Shown here piece after piece: positions 6,477-46,322 of a DNA stretch of 46,322 nucleotides (position 1 is its first letter; every line of letters begins with the position of its first letter). The DNA lies in the IMG/VR virus record IMGVR_UViG_3300035130_000135, positions 1 to 46,322 of that record; one strand, 5' to 3'. Both the position numbers and the translations under genes were made by a program. The notes beneath the pieces are model-generated. The model was not told the origin of the DNA, searched no databases, and saw only the letters and a list, made by a program, of their open reading frames with translations. The DNA is from a virus.

Positions 6477-6507
6477 TATGCATTATATATAGGGTGAGTG
6501 GCAATGA
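6477..6507 (+). repeat. 31-base direct repeat, left copy
   Basis: Identical to 6931-6961, which covers the last codons of the gene at 6536 and the start of its downstream spacer. The left copy therefore looks like the tail of a lost upstream gene copy, left after recombination between tandem duplicates. Confidence 0.7.
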
Positions 6508-6535: not shown

Positions 6536-6946
6536 ATGTATTTACATTGTGCTGATGATTCAACTATTGCAGCGATTAAAGCCCATGCTAAAGAGGTTGG
6601 AAAGGTTGAATTGGTTGGTCGAAATGATTTGGATTTGGCGAACCATTCAACAGATTGGAGCGATTATAATGAGTTAGATTGGGAATGGCAAGGCTGGGGA
6701 GAGGGAGCTGTGTATTGTCTGAAAGAAAGCACCGGAGCAGCTACAGCGTATGGCCGTACCTGCTTTGTATTAATCCCTGAATTGAGCGAATATGATACAT
6801 CTGTAGAGATTGAAAATAAATCTGGATTAGGAGGAGAAATTCTTGTTCCATTAGAGGATTTTGAGATCGCTGAAATTATCATTGATGGAGAGCATCACTT
6901 TTCTCCTGAAGAATGGGTAGAAAATAGTGATATGCATTATATATAG
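6536..6946 (+). CDS. Hypothetical acidic protein, 136 aa
   Basis: Start at 6536 chosen for AAGGAG at 6521-6526; a longer in-frame form from 6449 has no ribosome site. The protein is very acidic and rich in Trp (DWSDYNELDWEWQGWGEG), features seen in DNA-mimic inhibitors, although no known family is recognised. First gene of the cassette array, flanked by 31-base direct repeats. Confidence 0.65.
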   Translation: MYLHCADDSTIAAIKAHAKEVGKVELVGRNDLDLANHSTDWSDYNELDWEWQGWGEGAVYCLKESTGAATAYGRTCFVLIPELSEYDTSVEIENKSGLGGEILVPLEDFEIAEIIIDGEHHFSPEEWVENSDMHYI

Positions 6947-6961
6947 GGTGAGTGGCAATGA
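6931..6961 (+). repeat. 31-base direct repeat, right copy
   Basis: Exact second copy of 6477-6507. It overlaps the end of the gene at 6536, encoding its last residues (MHYI and stop), and runs into the spacer before the gene at 6989. Confidence 0.7.
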
Positions 6962-6988
6962 AGCCACTCAAAAACACGGAGGTAAATC

Positions 6989-7342
6989 ATGAAAACAACA
7001 CAATTTGACGCAACAATTACAATGTCTCAAAAAGATGCTGAACAATTCACGACACAGACAATCCAATGGAGAATTGAAAAGGTATTACGACGAAATTCAG
7101 ACATGCAAGATTCTTTAATTGTAGATGTTTCTTATGGGGCTAGAACAGGTCAGAATGAGCAAGAAATAACCCTAGAAAGCGTTATTGATGGTTTTTTGAA
7201 TGAGCATGGAGTTCTTGACCAAATTACTAGCGATGAGCCCCAGAAGGTTGCATTATATCTCAAGAAAGTAATCCAGGAAAACGAGAAGTTGAAACGGGAT
7301 CTAGATGCTATTCGGAAGATTGCTTTTGATGCAGTAAAATAA
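6989..7342 (+). CDS. Hypothetical protein, 117 aa
   Basis: Strong ribosome site GGAGG a few bases upstream. The N-terminal part looks like mixed alpha/beta; the C-terminal 35 residues look like a coiled coil (KKVIQENEKLKRDLDAIRKI). The stop codon directly abuts the hammerhead-like element, so its mRNA would be cleaved 26 bases beyond the stop if the ribozyme is active. Function unknown. Confidence 0.7.
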   Translation: MKTTQFDATITMSQKDAEQFTTQTIQWRIEKVLRRNSDMQDSLIVDVSYGARTGQNEQEITLESVIDGFLNEHGVLDQITSDEPQKVALYLKKVIQENEKLKRDLDAIRKIAFDAVK

Positions 7343-7343
7343 A

Positions 7344-7400
7344 GCCGAAACCGGGGTAACACCCGGTCGTCCCTGGGTGGTTCCTGGGGCCTGATGAGGC
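7344..7400 (+). ncRNA. Type II hammerhead ribozyme
   Basis: All core elements of a hammerhead are present in the type II order. Stem II 3' strand GCC (7344-7346); conserved GAAA (7347-7350); stem III CCGGG/CCCGG (7351-7355 with 7362-7366, loop of 6); UC (7367-7368), with cleavage expected after C7368; stem I GUCCC/GGGGC (7369-7373 with 7386-7390, one G-U pair) closing an inner small hairpin; conserved CUGAUGA (7391-7397); stem II 5' strand GGC (7398-7400) pairing with 7344-7346. The A-U pair of the core (A7350-U7367) is intact. It lies wholly between two genes and would separate their transcripts. Stem II is only 3 pairs, which is its weakest feature. Confidence 0.75.
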
Positions 7401-7432
7401 AGCCACCTCAAAAAACAACGGAGGAACATAGT

Positions 7433-7720
7433 ATGAGAAATTTGCCCAGCAAACAGAAGGTATTAATAGAAGAAGCAATCCAAGGTTGGGCTGAATTGCC
7501 TGAAGGAGAGATCTTCTATCTTGAGGAGCCGTGTAATTGTGGCTCCCAGATCCGCCACAATAATGGCGGAAATTATCATGAAGTAATCGAATTTTGCAAG
7601 GATTCAGGAAGAATTTTTGCAAAACATGGGTCAACCTATGAAAACGATCAAGCGGAATGGGAAGAATGTACTCATGGGGATGTGATCTCGGCAATTGCAT
7701 CCCATGGTGATTGGTTATAA
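7433..7720 (+). CDS. Hypothetical protein, 95 aa
   Basis: Start at 7433 chosen for GGAGG upstream; the longer frame from 7394 would begin inside the hammerhead. The protein has a CNCGS motif near residue 34 and single Cys residues near 55 and 77, possibly metal-binding. If the ribozyme cleaves, this gene's mRNA would begin with a structured 5' end at G7369. No family recognised. Confidence 0.65.
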   Translation: MRNLPSKQKVLIEEAIQGWAELPEGEIFYLEEPCNCGSQIRHNNGGNYHEVIEFCKDSGRIFAKHGSTYENDQAEWEECTHGDVISAIASHGDWL

Positions 7721-7728
7721 GGCAGTAC

Positions 7729-7781
7729 CCTCCGGCCCCTGCCTCTAGGTGGGGGCCGTGAATCCCTGGAAGGGATGTCGT
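7729..7781 (+). repeat. Structured intergenic element, copy A
   Basis: 53 bases, repeated at 8026-8078 with six differences. It forms a 10-pair hairpin at 7734-7757 (GGCCCCTGCC, loop TCTA, GGTGGGGGCC) and a second hairpin ATCCCT/AGGGAT (7762-7767 with 7771-7776), followed by GTCGT. Between copies the changes keep the first stem paired (a G-U becomes G-C, a C-G becomes U-G), which points to a conserved RNA structure. No core of a known ribozyme was found in it. Confidence 0.65.
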
Positions 7782-7822
7782 GACCACTCAATGCTATCAA
7801 TAACAAACGGAGGTAAATCAAA

Positions 7823-8025: not shown

Positions 8026-8078
8026 CCTCCGGCCCCTGTCTACGGGCGGGGGCCGGGAATCCCTGGAAGGGATGTCGT
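8026..8078 (+). repeat. Structured intergenic element, copy B
   Basis: Second copy of the element at 7729-7781, differing at six positions, mostly in or near the apical loop. The stems GGCCCC/GGGGCC and ATCCCT/AGGGAT are unchanged. A separate GCCCC-GAAA-GGGGC hairpin (8103-8116) with a GNRA loop follows, just before the ribosome site of the next gene. Confidence 0.65.
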
Positions 8079-8130
8079 AATCACATCATTATGAATTGTT
8101 TCGCCCCGAAAGGGGCATGGAGGAAAAAGT

Positions 8131-8954: not shown

Positions 8955-8970
8955 CAATTAGGGAATAGGA

Positions 8971-9019
8971 CTGCCTGAGTGCCCATGAACTCAGGATAAC
9001 ATATGGAGGTAAGAGCATG
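8971..9019 (+). repeat. Cassette leader repeat, copy 1
   Basis: A 49-base leader ending in the start ATG, matching 9654-9702 at 43 of 49 positions. It contains a 7-pair hairpin CCTGAGT/ACTCAGG with an 8-base loop, then GGAGGTAAGAG as ribosome site. Same leader before two unrelated genes suggests gene replacement behind a fixed control element. Confidence 0.7.
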
Positions 9020-9646
9020 AAAATTAAGATTACATACGAAGATCTTCGCAAGCATGGGGCGTGCCGTGAAGGTTTAGATCTGTTTCAGAGTCTCTACCCG
9101 GAGGGGCTTGACATGGAGTGGAGTCGGGAAGCCCAGATTGAGCTATTGAAGACTAGCCCTCTCAAGCGATATTTCGCATGGGCCTATCGTTTCGGGGTGA
9201 TTCCCATCTTTTCAATGTCCGGGGCCGACCTGTCCGGGGCCAGCCTGCGAGAGGCCGACCTGCGAGAGGCCGACCTGCGAGAGGCCGACCTGCGAGGGGC
9301 CAACCTGCGAGAGGCCAACCTGTATGGGGCCGATCTGTCCGGGGCCGACCTGTCCGGGGCCAGCCTGCGAGAGGCCAGCCTGCGAGAGGCCGACCTGCGA
9401 GAGGCCAACCTGCGAGAGGCCAACCTGTATGGGGCCGACCTGTATGGGGCCGACCTGTCCGGGGCCGACCTGTCCGGGGCCAGCCTGCGAGAGGCCAACC
9501 TGTCCGGGGCCGACCTGTCCGGGGCCAGCCTGCGAGAGGCCGACCTGCGAGAGGCCGACCTGCGAGAGGCCGACCTGCGAGGGGCCAACCTGCGAGAGGC
9601 CAACCTGTCCGGGGCCGACCTGTATGGGGCAATTGGAATTAAGTAA
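9017..9646 (+). CDS. Pentapeptide repeat protein, 209 aa
   Basis: Residues 1-70 are a non-repetitive head containing KHGAC and YPEG, a motif I associate with the N terminus of several phage and bacterial pentapeptide-type proteins. Residues 71-207 are about 27 uninterrupted A(D/N/S)L-x-x pentapeptides (ADLSG, ADLRE, ANLYG), predicting a right-handed quadrilateral beta-helix. Long acidic pentapeptide helices can mimic DNA, as in the gyrase-binding Qnr and MfpA proteins. The coding DNA is a tandem array of 15-base units, more GC-rich than the surroundings, with higher-order duplication (9250-9324 resembles 9535-9609). Repeat number is probably unstable. Confidence 0.85.
   Translation: MKIKITYEDLRKHGACREGLDLFQSLYPEGLDMEWSREAQIELLKTSPLKRYFAWAYRFGVIPIFSMSGADLSGASLREADLREADLREADLRGANLREANLYGADLSGADLSGASLREASLREADLREANLREANLYGADLYGADLSGADLSGASLREANLSGADLSGASLREADLREADLREADLRGANLREANLSGADLYGAIGIK
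9228..9632 (+). repeat. 15-base tandem repeat array inside the pentapeptide gene
   Basis: About 27 units of 15 bases, mainly two types (GGGGCCGACCTGTCC and GAGGCCGACCTGCGA). Because the unit is a multiple of three and lacks stops, four other frames stay open over the array, which explains several long false reading frames here. Confidence 0.9.
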
Positions 9647-9653
9647 ATAGGGG

Positions 9654-9702
9654 CTGCCTAAGTGCCCACGAACTCAGGATAACCAACGGAGGTAAGAGTA
9701 TG
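9654..9702 (+). repeat. Cassette leader repeat, copy 2
   Basis: Second copy of 8971-9019 (43 of 49 bases identical). The hairpin has one change that breaks a pair (CCTAAGT/ACTCAGG), and the ribosome site is kept. Confidence 0.7.
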
Positions 9703-10044
9703 GAAACATTAACACAAGACCAACGACAACACATTTTACAACGGCTTCTCATTGTTTTTGGGCATCTCGTACAAGCTCAAAATCGAACCTTAGAAGCTAT
9801 GGTAGCATATGCGAACAAGCTCGATGAGCACCCAGGGAATTATATCGGAGCCCTTGAAAAAGGCATTCTTCGGAATATTGATGCCGCATTGGATATGATG
9901 CCAACGACCGAAGCCGTAATTGAACAGGGCGTTGCACAACTGATTGAGATCCTGGATCACCCGTTTAATCCGGGAGATCAGTTAGCACAACTTATCGAAC
10001 ACGAATATAATGGAAAACGAATTCCGATACATAGCATGAGTTGA
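9700..10044 (+). CDS. Hypothetical helical protein, 114 aa
   Basis: Start fixed by the leader repeat's GGAGG. All-helical prediction, with one segment centred on ALDMMPTTEAVIEQGVAQLI. No membrane span, no metal-binding Cys. It shares its leader with the pentapeptide gene, so the two are likely co-regulated. Function unknown. Confidence 0.65.
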   Translation: METLTQDQRQHILQRLLIVFGHLVQAQNRTLEAMVAYANKLDEHPGNYIGALEKGILRNIDAALDMMPTTEAVIEQGVAQLIEILDHPFNPGDQLAQLIEHEYNGKRIPIHSMS

Positions 10045-11231: not shown

Positions 11232-11314
11232 AAACACTATTCCATGAACTAGACAGGGAAGATCTAGAAGTATTAATGGAGAAAATTCAACAGGCTCATG
11301 CTCGCTCGATTTAA
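11228..11314 (+). CDS. Possible 28-aa linker peptide
   Basis: Short frame starting in the ATGA of the preceding stop, with AAAGG close upstream, and ending 17 bases inside the terminase gene. It may mainly serve to couple translation of small and large terminase. Existence as a protein is uncertain. Confidence 0.4.
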   Translation: MKTLFHELDREDLEVLMEKIQQAHARSI

Positions 11315-12662
11315 GCGTCGCCAACGCCAAAAACACTTTCATTATTCACAGATCATGACACAATCTACAGCTCTTTCTCCCTATGCTCCCGTCAATCGCA
11401 AGGCTGCTCAGTTTCATGCCTCGACAGCCAAAATCAATTTGCTGCCTGGTGGAAACCAAAGCGGGAAAACAACAACCGCTGCTCATGATCATGTAATGTA
11501 TGCTCGAAAAAAGCCTAATGGTTGTAAGGGGCTCGCCATGACAAATACCTATGAAAAAATAGGGGAAAACCTCTGGCCTCATTATAAAGAATGCCTATGT
11601 TCTGGTGAGTGGCGATGGATTAAAGGCAATGAGAAACAGGATAATCCCAAAATCATTGAACTTCTTTCAAATGGATACCGATTTCATTTTGGGAGTTATG
11701 AACAAAAGCGGAGTGCTCATCAGGGCGCGATCTGGGATTATGTCCATTTTGATGAAGAATGTCCCTATGATGTCTGGGTAGAGGTCTTTCGTGGAACGAT
11801 AGCTAGGAAAGCTCGGATAGGCTATAGCTATACCTGTATTGAAAATTACGAATATCTAGAAGAATTAGAAGAAAAAGGCCATAGCCCATCAGAGCCTAAC
11901 TACTGGACGCCTCAAGAACCAATGTCGCTCCTCGAAAATCCTTATGTGCCCCAGGAAGAGAAAGACATCTTTATCGGTATGCTTCCTGAAAGTATTCGGA
12001 AATATCGCATTCATGGCTTTCGTGGGGTTCGTGAAGGGGCGGTCTATCCAGAATTTTTGCCAGAAATTCACGTCTGTGAACCGTTTCCTGTTCCTGGTGA
12101 CTGGACGTTTTATCGAGTAATTGATTTCGGGAAAGTGCATCCTACGGTATCCCTAATTATGGCAACTGATGGGTATTATATGTATGTGATTGATGAATAC
12201 TACCAACCCTCTCGACTCATTGACTATCATGTCAAACAATTCCAGGAACAACACCAGCGGCTCTTAATTAAGCATGGGGAAGAACCACATTACTTGCCCT
12301 CATTAATTACAATTTCTGATCATGATGCCCAGTTACGTTTAGAGTATGAAAATAAAGGCATCTATTCACAACCGGCACAAAAGAAAGTCATTGCCGGGAT
12401 CGAAGTCGTTGAGACCTTATTAGCCATTCCAGAAGGAGAAACACAGCCTCGACTCAGGATATTCTCGACGTGCCTAAATACTATACGACAAATGAGACGA
12501 TACGTCTATCCAGGAGCAGACCGACACGGTTATTTAAAGCCGGGAGAAAAAGCTGAGAAACCTGTCGAGCATGATGACGACTGTCCAGACTGCGTAAGAT
12601 ATGGCTGTGTTGAAGAATTTGGCTATGTCAACTGGGACCCGGACATGATTCAAAGCGGATAA
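11298..12662 (+). CDS. terL: Terminase large subunit
   Basis: The packaging motor, 454 aa. It combines an ATPase that translocates DNA into the prohead with a nuclease that cuts the concatemer. Walker A GGNQSGKT at residues 51-58, Walker B VHFDEE at 149-154, and the nuclease domain from about 265, with Asp276 in VIDFGK and a later ISDHDA as probable metal ligands. The start at 11298 overlaps the 28-aa frame; an alternative Met is residue 20. It lies downstream of the small-terminase-like gene and upstream of the portal, the usual order. Confidence 0.93.
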   Translation: MLARFKRRQRQKHFHYSQIMTQSTALSPYAPVNRKAAQFHASTAKINLLPGGNQSGKTTTAAHDHVMYARKKPNGCKGLAMTNTYEKIGENLWPHYKECLCSGEWRWIKGNEKQDNPKIIELLSNGYRFHFGSYEQKRSAHQGAIWDYVHFDEECPYDVWVEVFRGTIARKARIGYSYTCIENYEYLEELEEKGHSPSEPNYWTPQEPMSLLENPYVPQEEKDIFIGMLPESIRKYRIHGFRGVREGAVYPEFLPEIHVCEPFPVPGDWTFYRVIDFGKVHPTVSLIMATDGYYMYVIDEYYQPSRLIDYHVKQFQEQHQRLLIKHGEEPHYLPSLITISDHDAQLRLEYENKGIYSQPAQKKVIAGIEVVETLLAIPEGETQPRLRIFSTCLNTIRQMRRYVYPGADRHGYLKPGEKAEKPVEHDDDCPDCVRYGCVEEFGYVNWDPDMIQSG

Positions 12663-24935: not shown

Positions 24936-27254
24936 ATGCCAGCAACAACCGTTAGTGCACTGATTTATAAGGTCATCTGGGATGATGGAGACGCCAGGAA
25001 AAAAGCGAATGCCTGGGATCGCAAGCTTCAAGACTCGTCAAAAAGTGCGAATCTCCTGAAAAAAGCCTTTGTCAGCATGAGCACAGGGCTTGTCAACTTT
25101 ACGGTTGATGCCGTCAAAAATTTTGCCCAGTTTGAGGACACCCTGTCTCACGCTAGGCGGACAATGGGGTTGAGCCGAGACGAAACACTTGAACTGGGCA
25201 ACGCCCTGATGGATTTGTCCACATCCTTTAAAGACGGGGGGCTAGCGGCTGGTATCTCTGCAAATGAACTCGCTAAGATCTCAGGCATCTTAGGACAATT
25301 AGGCTTCAACGCCCGTGATAATGCCGAACAATTCAATCAACTCGTGTCGGTTGTGGCAAAAGTGGGGGTTGCCTTCGGAATGACTGCCCAAAAAGCCGCG
25401 GAGGGATTAGGTATCCTTAAGAATCTCTATGATTTGCCCGTTGAGAAGATTGAAAACGCGGCCTCCTCAATTGCCTATCTCGGAAACTCGACGATTGCCA
25501 CGGCATCAGACATCATGAATATAATGACCCGCATGGGTGGAATCGCTGGCTTGCTCGGCGTCTCGGCGTCGGAGGCTGCCGCGCTAGCCAGTAGTTTACG
25601 CGAGGCCGGGGTCAGGGCAGGGCTTGCCGGGACTGCGATGAGTCAAATCTTTTCTCGGATGGCGTCCGATGTCGAGCGGTTTGGCGAAGTGCTCAAAATG
25701 AGCGAATTCGAAAAGTCTATGTTTCGGATGAAACTCGAAAGCGGGAAGGCGACAGAAGCCCTTCAAATGGTGTTGGGATCTCTGCAAAAAATCAGTACGC
25801 AAGAAGGCAAGATCGCCGCGGTCCAGGCGCTCAAGGATTTAGGGTTGAGTGGTGTACGAGTACAGCAGACGCTTTTAGCTCTCAGCAATAATATTGCAGG
25901 GCTCAACAAGAACCTGCGGGCCTCTAGAGAAGCTTTTCGAGAAAATACAGCGGTCAACGATGCGTACCAGGCTGCAATTGATAATACTTCCAAGAAATGG
26001 ACACAGTTTAAAAACCTGATCGACATTATCAAAAAGCTGATTGGCAAAGATCTAGCATTAGCGTTTTCCGATTTTCTCGACAACCACCTAATTCCGTTTA
26101 CAGCCCGGTTCAAAGACTGGCTCAAAACCAGCGAAGGGGCAAAGGCCATTTTTGGACGGGACGGCCTCATTGCCTCTGGACTAGACTGGATAGGAGAGCA
26201 GCTTTCAAACAATGAAGATGCCTTTTTTGACTGGGCAGATACGCTCAGTAATGCGATCCCTAAATATATCGAACAACTTAAGATCGCCTTTAAAGAAGAA
26301 TTTGGAGAAATTAATATTACAATTTTAGATGTTACCGAAGCCTTGCAAATGGTTAAAGGGGTTTTTGAGGACGTTGGAAAGGTCATTGAAGAAGCAGAAA
26401 TAGCCTGGGGAATTTTTACGGAAACGGTTCGGGAATCCTGGAAAGACCTGAAACAGATTGGTGAATTACTTGGAAAGGTGATCCCCCTTGCTACATATAA
26501 GAGTAGTCAGGGGTTGTATGATTTCGTCAAGGCGGCAAAAGAAGGTACAAAGGCCGGACAAGAAATGGGGAAAGAATGGGTGTACCAGTCGGTGTTGCCG
26601 GACATCCAGAAAGAATTAGATGTTGCAACGGCAAAACTTGAGAAGTTTGGGGGGTCCACGAAAGAACTCTACAAGACGGGCGAAAACACATGGACTAATC
26701 TCAAGAAAGAGGTTGATGAGACTATGACGGCGTGGGAGTTGCAAGATGGGTATGCGATGAAACGCCAAGCTGACCTCCAGTTCAATCTCTACGAAACGGC
26801 AGATAAGGTTGTTGGATTGGGATATGCCTACCAAAAAACGGGGCAAGATGCGGAAAAAGCGGCGGAGTCTATGGAGAAAACGGTTGAGGTCGCCCAACAA
26901 CTCCAGGCAATGGCGGAGGCGTCAGGTTCGCGAAGGGTAACGGATATGACAGCCTCACAATGGGCTAATCTCACCCCTGGAGCCATTCAGCAACTCCTCA
27001 ATACTCCAGGGTTAATGAACGCCAGTGGGGCAGCGAATGTCCAGCAATATCAACAATCACAAGCTTATGAGAGTCGATTCGGGGGGGGTGGATCAAGTCA
27101 AGCCGATCTAGCGGCACGACAACAAAAAGCAGAGGCCATTAACGTGACGCTACAAATGGGCGATCAGGAAATTGGACGGGTTCACGCAATCTTGAAAGAT
27201 CGAGACTATCAAGAACAACGACGGGGCGGGCTTGGCAGTACAAGTACACGATAA
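24936..27254 (+). CDS. Tail tape measure protein
   Basis: 772 aa, the largest tail gene. Residues 50-270 contain the TP901-type tape measure core, with ISANELAKISGILGQLGF, KVGVAFGMTAQKAAEGLG and SASEAAALASSLREAGVRAG. The rest is long helix (about 300-700), with a Gln/Gly-rich C-terminal region (SRFGGGGSSQAD). It sets tail length; by length the tail would be of short to moderate size for a siphophage. No peptidase domain was identified. Confidence 0.88.
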   Translation: MPATTVSALIYKVIWDDGDARKKANAWDRKLQDSSKSANLLKKAFVSMSTGLVNFTVDAVKNFAQFEDTLSHARRTMGLSRDETLELGNALMDLSTSFKDGGLAAGISANELAKISGILGQLGFNARDNAEQFNQLVSVVAKVGVAFGMTAQKAAEGLGILKNLYDLPVEKIENAASSIAYLGNSTIATASDIMNIMTRMGGIAGLLGVSASEAAALASSLREAGVRAGLAGTAMSQIFSRMASDVERFGEVLKMSEFEKSMFRMKLESGKATEALQMVLGSLQKISTQEGKIAAVQALKDLGLSGVRVQQTLLALSNNIAGLNKNLRASREAFRENTAVNDAYQAAIDNTSKKWTQFKNLIDIIKKLIGKDLALAFSDFLDNHLIPFTARFKDWLKTSEGAKAIFGRDGLIASGLDWIGEQLSNNEDAFFDWADTLSNAIPKYIEQLKIAFKEEFGEINITILDVTEALQMVKGVFEDVGKVIEEAEIAWGIFTETVRESWKDLKQIGELLGKVIPLATYKSSQGLYDFVKAAKEGTKAGQEMGKEWVYQSVLPDIQKELDVATAKLEKFGGSTKELYKTGENTWTNLKKEVDETMTAWELQDGYAMKRQADLQFNLYETADKVVGLGYAYQKTGQDAEKAAESMEKTVEVAQQLQAMAEASGSRRVTDMTASQWANLTPGAIQQLLNTPGLMNASGAANVQQYQQSQAYESRFGGGGSSQADLAARQQKAEAINVTLQMGDQEIGRVHAILKDRDYQEQRRGGLGSTSTR

Positions 27255-38523: not shown

Positions 38524-39033
38524 ATGCAAGATCCGTCAGGTAATGAACTTTACAACTGGTCGGAAAAGGGATACTTTGGGGTGCGAAGCAGCTTTTTTGA
38601 ACAGGGGTATATTGCATTTTTTGGACTCTATACAAGCATGATCTATCTCTGTATTCTTGGCCATACACATCATTATAAGGGGTATGCAGATCTATCACTG
38701 GCAGAGATTTCTAGAATAACCGGGATTACTGGAAAAAACTGCATTCGTCACAGCATTCAACATCTCCAGCAGTGTCGGTTTATCTCATGTGATGTGAAAC
38801 AAGGCAGAAAAACCCGGTTTTATCCACTCCATTGGTCGCTTTGGAAACAGCGAGTAAAAAAAATCACCCTTAAAAAACGACCAGCAAAATTACGAAAACC
38901 CAAACCCATACAAGAGGCGCTATCAATACAGTGTAATCCCCCTCTGTCAGAGCAAGAGAGACGAAACATGTTGCTACAACAAGGAGAACAGTTAAAGCGA
39001 GGCCAACTGTATCTCCAGGATACACAGTTGTAA
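38524..39033 (+). CDS. Replication initiator (Rep-like, winged-helix)
   Basis: 169 aa. GAAACATCT precedes the ATG. The N terminus (YFGVRSSFFEQGYIAFF) and the LSLAEISRITGITGKNCIRH helix-turn-helix fit a winged-helix DNA-binding protein of the kind seen in phage and plasmid replication initiators. The C-terminal half is basic. Its own coding end contains the first of five palindromic repeats that continue downstream, so the protein probably binds them to start replication. No helicase or primase motif, so host replication enzymes would be recruited. Confidence 0.6.
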   Translation: MQDPSGNELYNWSEKGYFGVRSSFFEQGYIAFFGLYTSMIYLCILGHTHHYKGYADLSLAEISRITGITGKNCIRHSIQHLQQCRFISCDVKQGRKTRFYPLHWSLWKQRVKKITLKKRPAKLRKPKPIQEALSIQCNPPLSEQERRNMLLQQGEQLKRGQLYLQDTQL

Positions 39034-39228
39034 TTTAACTGTATCTCCAGGATACACAGTTGCATGTGTCTTATTTACGGGTAAGTCGAGGCCAACTGTA
39101 TCTCCAGGATACACAGTTGAGTGGTTGAAAAACAGCAAAAATGATACTTGGAATTAATAGATATAGTGTAAAAGGAAGGGTAACTGTATCTCCAGGATAC
39201 ACAAACTGTATCTCCAGGATACACAGTT
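39005..39228 (+). repeat. Five palindromic iterons; candidate replication origin
   Basis: Copies at 39005-39029, 39037-39061, 39094-39118, 39182-39203 (lacking its right end) and 39204-39228. Each has core TGTATC-N5-GATACA inside AACTG...CAGTT. Spacing is irregular. The first copy is inside the Rep-like gene's last codons. The stretch to 39423, about 195 bases beyond, has no gene and is AT-rich, suited to strand opening. Unlike CRISPR, the spacers are unequal and there are no cas genes. Confidence 0.7.
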
Positions 39229-39423
39229 GAAACGTGAAAATGAAAATGGGTTTACCTCTGAGACTAGGGAAGTCAGGAGATTTATTACAAGTTCCTTCCT
39301 ATAAAGAGAATTAACGATCTTAATATATGTGTATGTCCTGTAACTCATAAGTTGCTATACAAGATAGAGCCGTCGCGAAATTGGGGCATATATATACAAA
39401 GATCACAACAACAAGGAGAATTT

Positions 39424-46104: not shown

Positions 46105-46322
46105 TACACGATATATGGGAATGCAAGAGCGAACCGAGCATGAATTGAAAGAATGTCAAAAAAAAGTTCATGAGCTACAACAAGAGCTTGATCAGGCAAA
46201 GGATATGCTCAAAGAGGCATATATTATCATTTGCAGAGGGGTTGATCTGATGCCATCGTCTGAATTAGGGAAATGGCAAGGGATCCGGGCCTGGATTGAA
46301 GAAGTAGGAGAATATCTTGAGC
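46094..46322 (+). CDS. 5' part of the junction-spanning coiled-coil protein
   Basis: Starts at 46094 (AAGGAGG upstream), overlapping the previous gene by 11 bases, and continues at position 1 to the TAA at 118-120. The first 45 residues form a heptad-like coiled coil (ELKECQKKVHELQQELDQAK). About 105 residues in total. The continuous frame is strong support for a circular genome. Confidence 0.8.
   Translation, partial: MNIDTRYMGMQERTEHELKECQKKVHELQQELDQAKDMLKEAYIIICRGVDLMPSSELGKWQGIRAWIEEVGEYLE
46235..46322. repeat. Terminal direct repeat, right copy
   Basis: Exact copy of 1-88. With it removed, the circular genome length is 46,234 bp. Confidence 0.95.

Follow-up and report, generated by a model that had tools for sequence, protein, structure and literature searches.

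Type II hammerhead ribozymes (Rfam RF02276) are the closest described counterparts of the element reported here. Perreault et al. (2011; PMC3088659) reported hundreds of bacterial hammerheads, and for type II they described a pseudoknot formed between loop I and the 3′ tail, which is common, not universal. When consensus hammerheads were assayed in vitro, 14 of the 18 tested cleaved; clustered prophage hammerheads also cleaved in vitro, one prophage triple did so in E. coli as well, and the clusters were proposed to process long transcripts into gene- or operon-length mRNAs (PMC3088659). A hammerhead variant is found in haloviruses HF1 and HF2, where it lies a little upstream of a gene (PMC3088659; PMC7230728), and a mapped transcript 5′ end falls no more than 3 nt from its cleavage site (PMC3088659). 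RiboJ was engineered from the ribozyme of the tobacco ringspot virus satellite RNA by adding a hairpin, and its cleavage provides the downstream gene with a fixed 5′ end and a hairpin; in E. coli, this combination of hammerhead and hairpin raised the transcript level about twofold, for which the authors suggest stabilization by the hairpin (PMC6206723). A 2017 review still treated the role of hammerheads in prokaryotes and their phages as open (PMC6155905).

The locus examined here is a gene gap near position 7,400 of the window, by which we mean the whole stretch of 46,322 nt that was analyzed. Like the published type II hammerheads, its element leaves stem II open, closes stems I and III with loops and has a canonical core, and it also has in common with them the loop I/3′-tail pseudoknot and the setting in gaps between phage or prophage genes (PMC3088659). 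Type II hammerheads sometimes occur several per phage, whereas the window carries a single copy, with no difference in architecture. The HF1/HF2 hammerhead is likewise viral and located shortly before a gene, but it has a variant core and belongs to a halophilic archaeal host, while the core in the window is canonical (PMC3088659; PMC7230728). The principle behind RiboJ, a defined and hairpin-capped 5′ end for the downstream gene, is proposed for the window as well, although RiboJ sits after a promoter and the window ribozyme between genes (PMC6206723).

To identify the element, all 4227 Rfam families were searched against both strands of the whole window. The covariance-model check that the sequence-only reading of this gap had asked for returned a full-length match to Hammerhead_II (RF02276), which extends over 7343–7408 on the plus strand, covers model positions 1–66 of 66, and scores 55.0 bits against a curated cut-off of 37 (E = 1e-8). 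No other hammerhead was found by Rfam in the 46-kb phage record. The window has one instance of the spaced core pattern, which was absent from all 100 dinucleotide shuffles; Rfam hammerhead searches of control genomes gave matches in 0 of 14, and five scrambled-core patterns gave no match in 120 viral loci plus the window, under a spacer rule that covers all distinct cores but the 13 of 134 whose stem III is shortest. A looser search of the window for CTGATGA followed by GAAA returned 2 matches, with 1.45 expected, and was rejected as a sign of a second hammerhead.

All parts of the ribozyme lie on the plus strand. Stem II is formed by GCC at 7344–7346 and GGC at 7398–7400, and its 5′ strand is followed by the GAA of the catalytic core (7347–7349) and then by the stem III hairpin (7350–7367), in which 7350–7355 pairs with 7362–7367 to give 6 bp closed by a loop at 7356–7361. 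The outer pair of this stem, A7350–U7367, is the core A-U pair. From its position in the hammerhead core, cleavage is predicted after C7368, the last base of GUC 7366–7368, and the stem I hairpin follows immediately (7369–7390; 5 bp between 7369–7373 and 7386–7390, including one U-G, with a loop at 7374–7385). The core heptamer CUGAUGA occupies 7391–7397. The pseudoknot strands are GGGUGGUU in loop I (7375–7382) and AGCCACCU in the 3′ tail (7401–7408), which can form 8 pairs. The element thus contains every part of the invariant core (CUGAUGA, GAA, the core A-U pair and UH at the cleavage site, here C7368) in the type II permutation, with loops closing stems I and III and stem II open. The sequence-only reading had likewise described all core elements in type II order, an intact core A-U pair and three stems, and its coordinates for these parts agree with ours. 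It had placed the element at 7344–7400 and overlooked the pseudoknot; the start and the core of that range hold, but its end falls short, since the tail at 7401–7408 pairs with loop I and carries the element to 7408. Judged by its sequence, the gap holds a genuine hammerhead ribozyme of type II. Since this class has been published together with its pseudoknot and its occurrence in phage gene gaps, the present copy is real but ordinary.

The ribozyme is flanked by two genes on the plus strand. The upstream gene (6989–7342, 117 aa) ends with TAA at 7340–7342, directly before the Rfam match, so that stem II starts 1 nt after the stop codon, and the downstream gene (7433–7720, 95 aa) begins with ATG at 7433 and is preceded by the Shine-Dalgarno sequence GGAGG at 7420–7424; the position claimed earlier, directly behind one stop codon and ahead of the next ribosome site, is therefore borne out. 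An in-frame ATG of the downstream gene also lies inside the ribozyme core (7394–7396), and the open reading frame is listed from 7394; the start that has a ribosome site is 7433, not 7394. Neither flanking gene matched Pfam or PHROG, and the downstream protein had no relative among the viral contigs. The record is identified as a phage by a terminase large subunit (11298–12662) and a tape measure protein (24936–27254). Relatives of the terminase were found at 2 distant loci (26% and 23% identity), neither of which has an Rfam RNA family above cut-off, hence no hammerhead. Searches with the terminase and the downstream protein and distant blastn searches found no close relative of the phage; in the phage collection, distant blastn matched 37 records, and in the 20 of them listed it matched only the stretch of the pentapeptide-repeat gene. 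This gene, at 9017–9646 in the same gene cassette as the ribozyme, encodes a pentapeptide-repeat-like protein and is built from 15-base repeat units. Both ends of the record share an identical 88-base direct repeat (1–88 and 46235–46322), so the record is probably a complete genome, either circular or with terminal repeats.

Several other repeats and structures were observed in the window. A structured repeat is present in the next two gene gaps, at 7729–7787 and 8026–8084 (86% identity), with a predicted 10-bp hairpin whose apical part differs between the copies, and CCUCC ahead of the hairpin pairs with the GGAGG ribosome site of the gene that follows (z −1.97 and −4.88); on these predictions, the repeats are possibly leaders that hide the ribosome site. 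They had no Rfam match up to E = 1, and no matches were found to them in genome contigs or to their 22-base core in viral contigs. The 25 viral matches to a looser form of the repeat had surroundings that, judged by eye, read as unrelated sequence, and the 1 viral match to the outer stem was a G+C-rich hairpin judged unrelated. With two copies in one phage and no true relatives, the idea of a new ribozyme class is only noted here. An exact 31-base direct repeat, TATGCATTATATATAGGGTGAGTGGCAATGA, lies at 6477–6507 and 6931–6961, before two neighboring genes, and in sequence it looks like a phage promoter (TATATAGGG). At 6949–6970, GAGTGGC and GCCACTC form a hairpin (z −3.84) whose 3′ strand continues into A-rich sequence and CGGAGG. 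The gap that holds the ribozyme and the one before 7823 both end in a comparable leader, CCAC(C)TC...CGGAGG, so the ribozyme may replace a hairpin of the 6949–6970 type upstream of a shared leader. A further repeated gap (86%) precedes two other genes, at 8968–9023 and 9651–9706, with the hairpin CCTGAGT/ACTCAGG predicted in the first copy and not in the second. At 38988–39229, a palindromic repeat centered on TGTATCTCCAGGATACACAGTTG is present five times, perhaps as operators or an origin.

To evaluate where viral type II hammerheads are placed relative to genes, viral contigs were scanned with the core pattern, which gave at least 120 stretches holding 143 matches; with the window added, there were 144 matches and, among the matches listed, 134 distinct cores. 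Placement was measured for the 127 distinct cores having at least 200 nt on either side, a stop was defined as the end of an open stretch of at least 50 codons, and 2540 same-strand positions served as the random control. These counts include some mutually related loci, depend on mechanical gene calls, and retain three apparent chance matches in coding sequence (L065, L069 and L085). Among the matches listed, the core started between −5 and +10 nt of an upstream stop in 103/127, compared with 216/2540 random positions and 23/127 on the opposite strand. A Shine-Dalgarno sequence plus start was found within 45 nt downstream in 98/127 of the matches listed and at 393/2540 random positions, and both features were present together in 78/127 and at 44/2540, respectively. 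Quartiles of the distance were 0, 2 and 4.5 nt to the stop, and 22, 28 and 39.5 nt to the next start (113/118 cores).

In 15 of the 17 cores whose next start was at least 60 nt away, the stop nevertheless lay within 10 nt, and when the stop was at least 30 nt away, a start lay within 45 nt in 8 of 10. In 45 cases the gap left 15 nt or more of slack, and in 33 of these the ribozyme was closer to the stop (P = 0.0025), and counting one case per locus it was nearer the stop in 27 of 37 (P = 0.0076). Because adjacency to the stop persists even where the next gene is far away, we conclude that most viral type II ribozymes are trailers fixed to the end of the upstream gene. The window copy, 1 nt after its stop and before a ribosome site, follows this placement rule. 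No report of a stop-codon spacing rule was found in the open-access literature consulted, and anchoring to the stop codon is the only part of our findings for which that literature gave no earlier report.

When 20 whole viral records were searched with RF02276, 19 had a match at E ≤ 0.001 and 15 exceeded the cut-off, and six of the 20 contained 10, 9, 5, 4, 4 and 4 matches. In four records (L009, L060, L097 and L103, with 10, 9, 5 and 4 matches), type II hammerheads lie between successive genes. A hammerhead pattern that also required an AGCC tail had 0 matches in genome contigs, in contrast to the hundreds of bacterial hammerheads reported by Perreault et al. (PMC3088659), and no conclusion was drawn from this result.

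The pairing of loop I with the 3′ tail was also evaluated across the viral members. In the window, the 8 contiguous pairs would form a duplex of −11.1 kcal/mol, and taken alone this is unremarkable, since pairing at least as good arose in 558 of 10000 shuffles of the window's tail. Among the matches listed, however, loop and tail can form a helix of 4 bp or more in 40 of the 42 viral members with a loop I of at least 8 nt; when tails were exchanged among members 300 times, this number averaged 19.2 and never exceeded 26. For all 122 members with clear stems, 12 of the 134 cores having been left out for weak or misparsed stems, 58 had a loop-tail helix, whereas tail exchange gave 20.9 on average and 31 at most. 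Loop-tail pairing is therefore striking as a property of the group, not for the window copy alone.

The reading we favor, and hold to be probable, is that the ribozyme is self-cutting punctuation that insulates the mRNAs of two co-directional phage genes. Upon transcription, the stem III and stem I hairpins would flank the scissile bond and stem II would close the core, pairing of loop I with the 3′ tail would hold stems I and II alongside each other, and the RNA would cut itself after C7368. The stem III hairpin, carrying a 2′,3′-cyclic phosphate, would then form the end of the upstream mRNA, 26 nt past the stop codon, and the stem I hairpin would form the beginning of the downstream mRNA, with a 5′-OH at G7369 and the start codon 64 nt further on. 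Hairpins at RNA ends slow exonucleases, and 5′-OH ends are poor substrates for 5′-end-dependent decay in E. coli. A long phage transcript would in this way become shorter mRNAs with hairpin-protected ends, whose decay and translation would be insulated from one another. A split of this mRNA is to be expected from the architecture and from the cleavage assays published for other hammerheads (PMC3088659). Our analysis shows the sequence, the match to the structure model, the complementarity of the pseudoknot strands and the placement, from which we infer transcription, cleavage, the effects on mRNA life and translation, and the benefit to the phage.

A switch in which cleavage would expose the ribosome site was considered and rejected. 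In 88 gaps, collected under the spacer rule that covers all distinct cores but the 13 of 134 named above, predicted accessibility went up in 28 and down in 28 (P = 0.52), and in the window the predicted accessibility of the Shine-Dalgarno sequence was 0.25 before cleavage and 0.25 after. A simple translation switch is not supported, because predicted Shine-Dalgarno accessibility is unaffected by cleavage.

An element with a canonical core could nonetheless be slow or mostly misfolded, and act mainly as a stable structure behind the stop codon that blocks re-initiation. Without the pseudoknot, the active fold of the window copy lies 3.5 kcal/mol above the predicted minimum, and among the matches listed a gap as large or larger was seen in only 18 of 122 members (median 1.0); most members thus have a weaker predicted competitor to the active fold than the window copy, for which misfolding is possible for that reason. 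The duplex of the pseudoknot, which the folding program cannot include, may repay this deficit. The first paired base lies 1 nt past the stop, as is usual for the class given the stop adjacency described above, and ribosome termination structures, with which the element shares a stable RNA structure directly behind a stop codon, also sit immediately 3′ of stop codons (PMC7518266). Those structures are non-catalytic and have no conserved core (PMC7518266), and blocking a ribosome needs no exact catalytic core, yet the core in the window is exact. Conservation of the core among relatives is no evidence here, because the relatives were chosen by their core. We consider a mainly structural role unlikely; that a structure behind the stop could also block re-initiation is compatible with punctuation and insulation.

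The same proximity to the stop raises the idea that translation of the upstream gene gates the ribozyme, in which case phages would use hammerheads as translation-coupled mRNA scissors. A ribosome terminating at the stop would cover the 5′ strand of stem II, the GAA of the core and the beginning of stem III, so that cutting would take place only when no ribosome is terminating. If this is true, cleavage would read out translation of the upstream gene, and the mRNAs would separate once translation stops, for example upon host defense or at the end of infection. We regard gating as quite unlikely.

More doubtful again is that the ribozyme is a passenger, of a kind that evolves easily or is carried along with phage gene cassettes, its cleavage being of little consequence. 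The flanking genes are small and belong to no known family, no relative was found for the downstream gene, the phage has one copy, and its two distant terminase relatives have none over cut-off; hammerheads are also obtained readily in selection experiments (PMC3088659). The non-random placement and the occurrence of several copies per phage in other viral contigs argue against a passenger, as does the loop-tail pairing kept across divergent members. A chance resemblance rather than a ribozyme has next to no probability, and is ruled out at the sequence level by the covariance score (55.0 bits, E = 1e-8) and by the shuffle control (spaced core in 0/100).

Self-cutting mRNA punctuation thus remains our preferred reading of the window copy, which is one more clear member of the phage type II hammerheads; L009, L060, L097 and L103 are better test systems than the window. 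For the viral members, the placement results indicate anchoring to the stop codon of the upstream gene, and not just close packing ahead of the following one. The anchoring rule predicts a trailer that would provide the upstream mRNA with a hairpin cap and may interact with terminating ribosomes, and it makes the translation-gating model testable.
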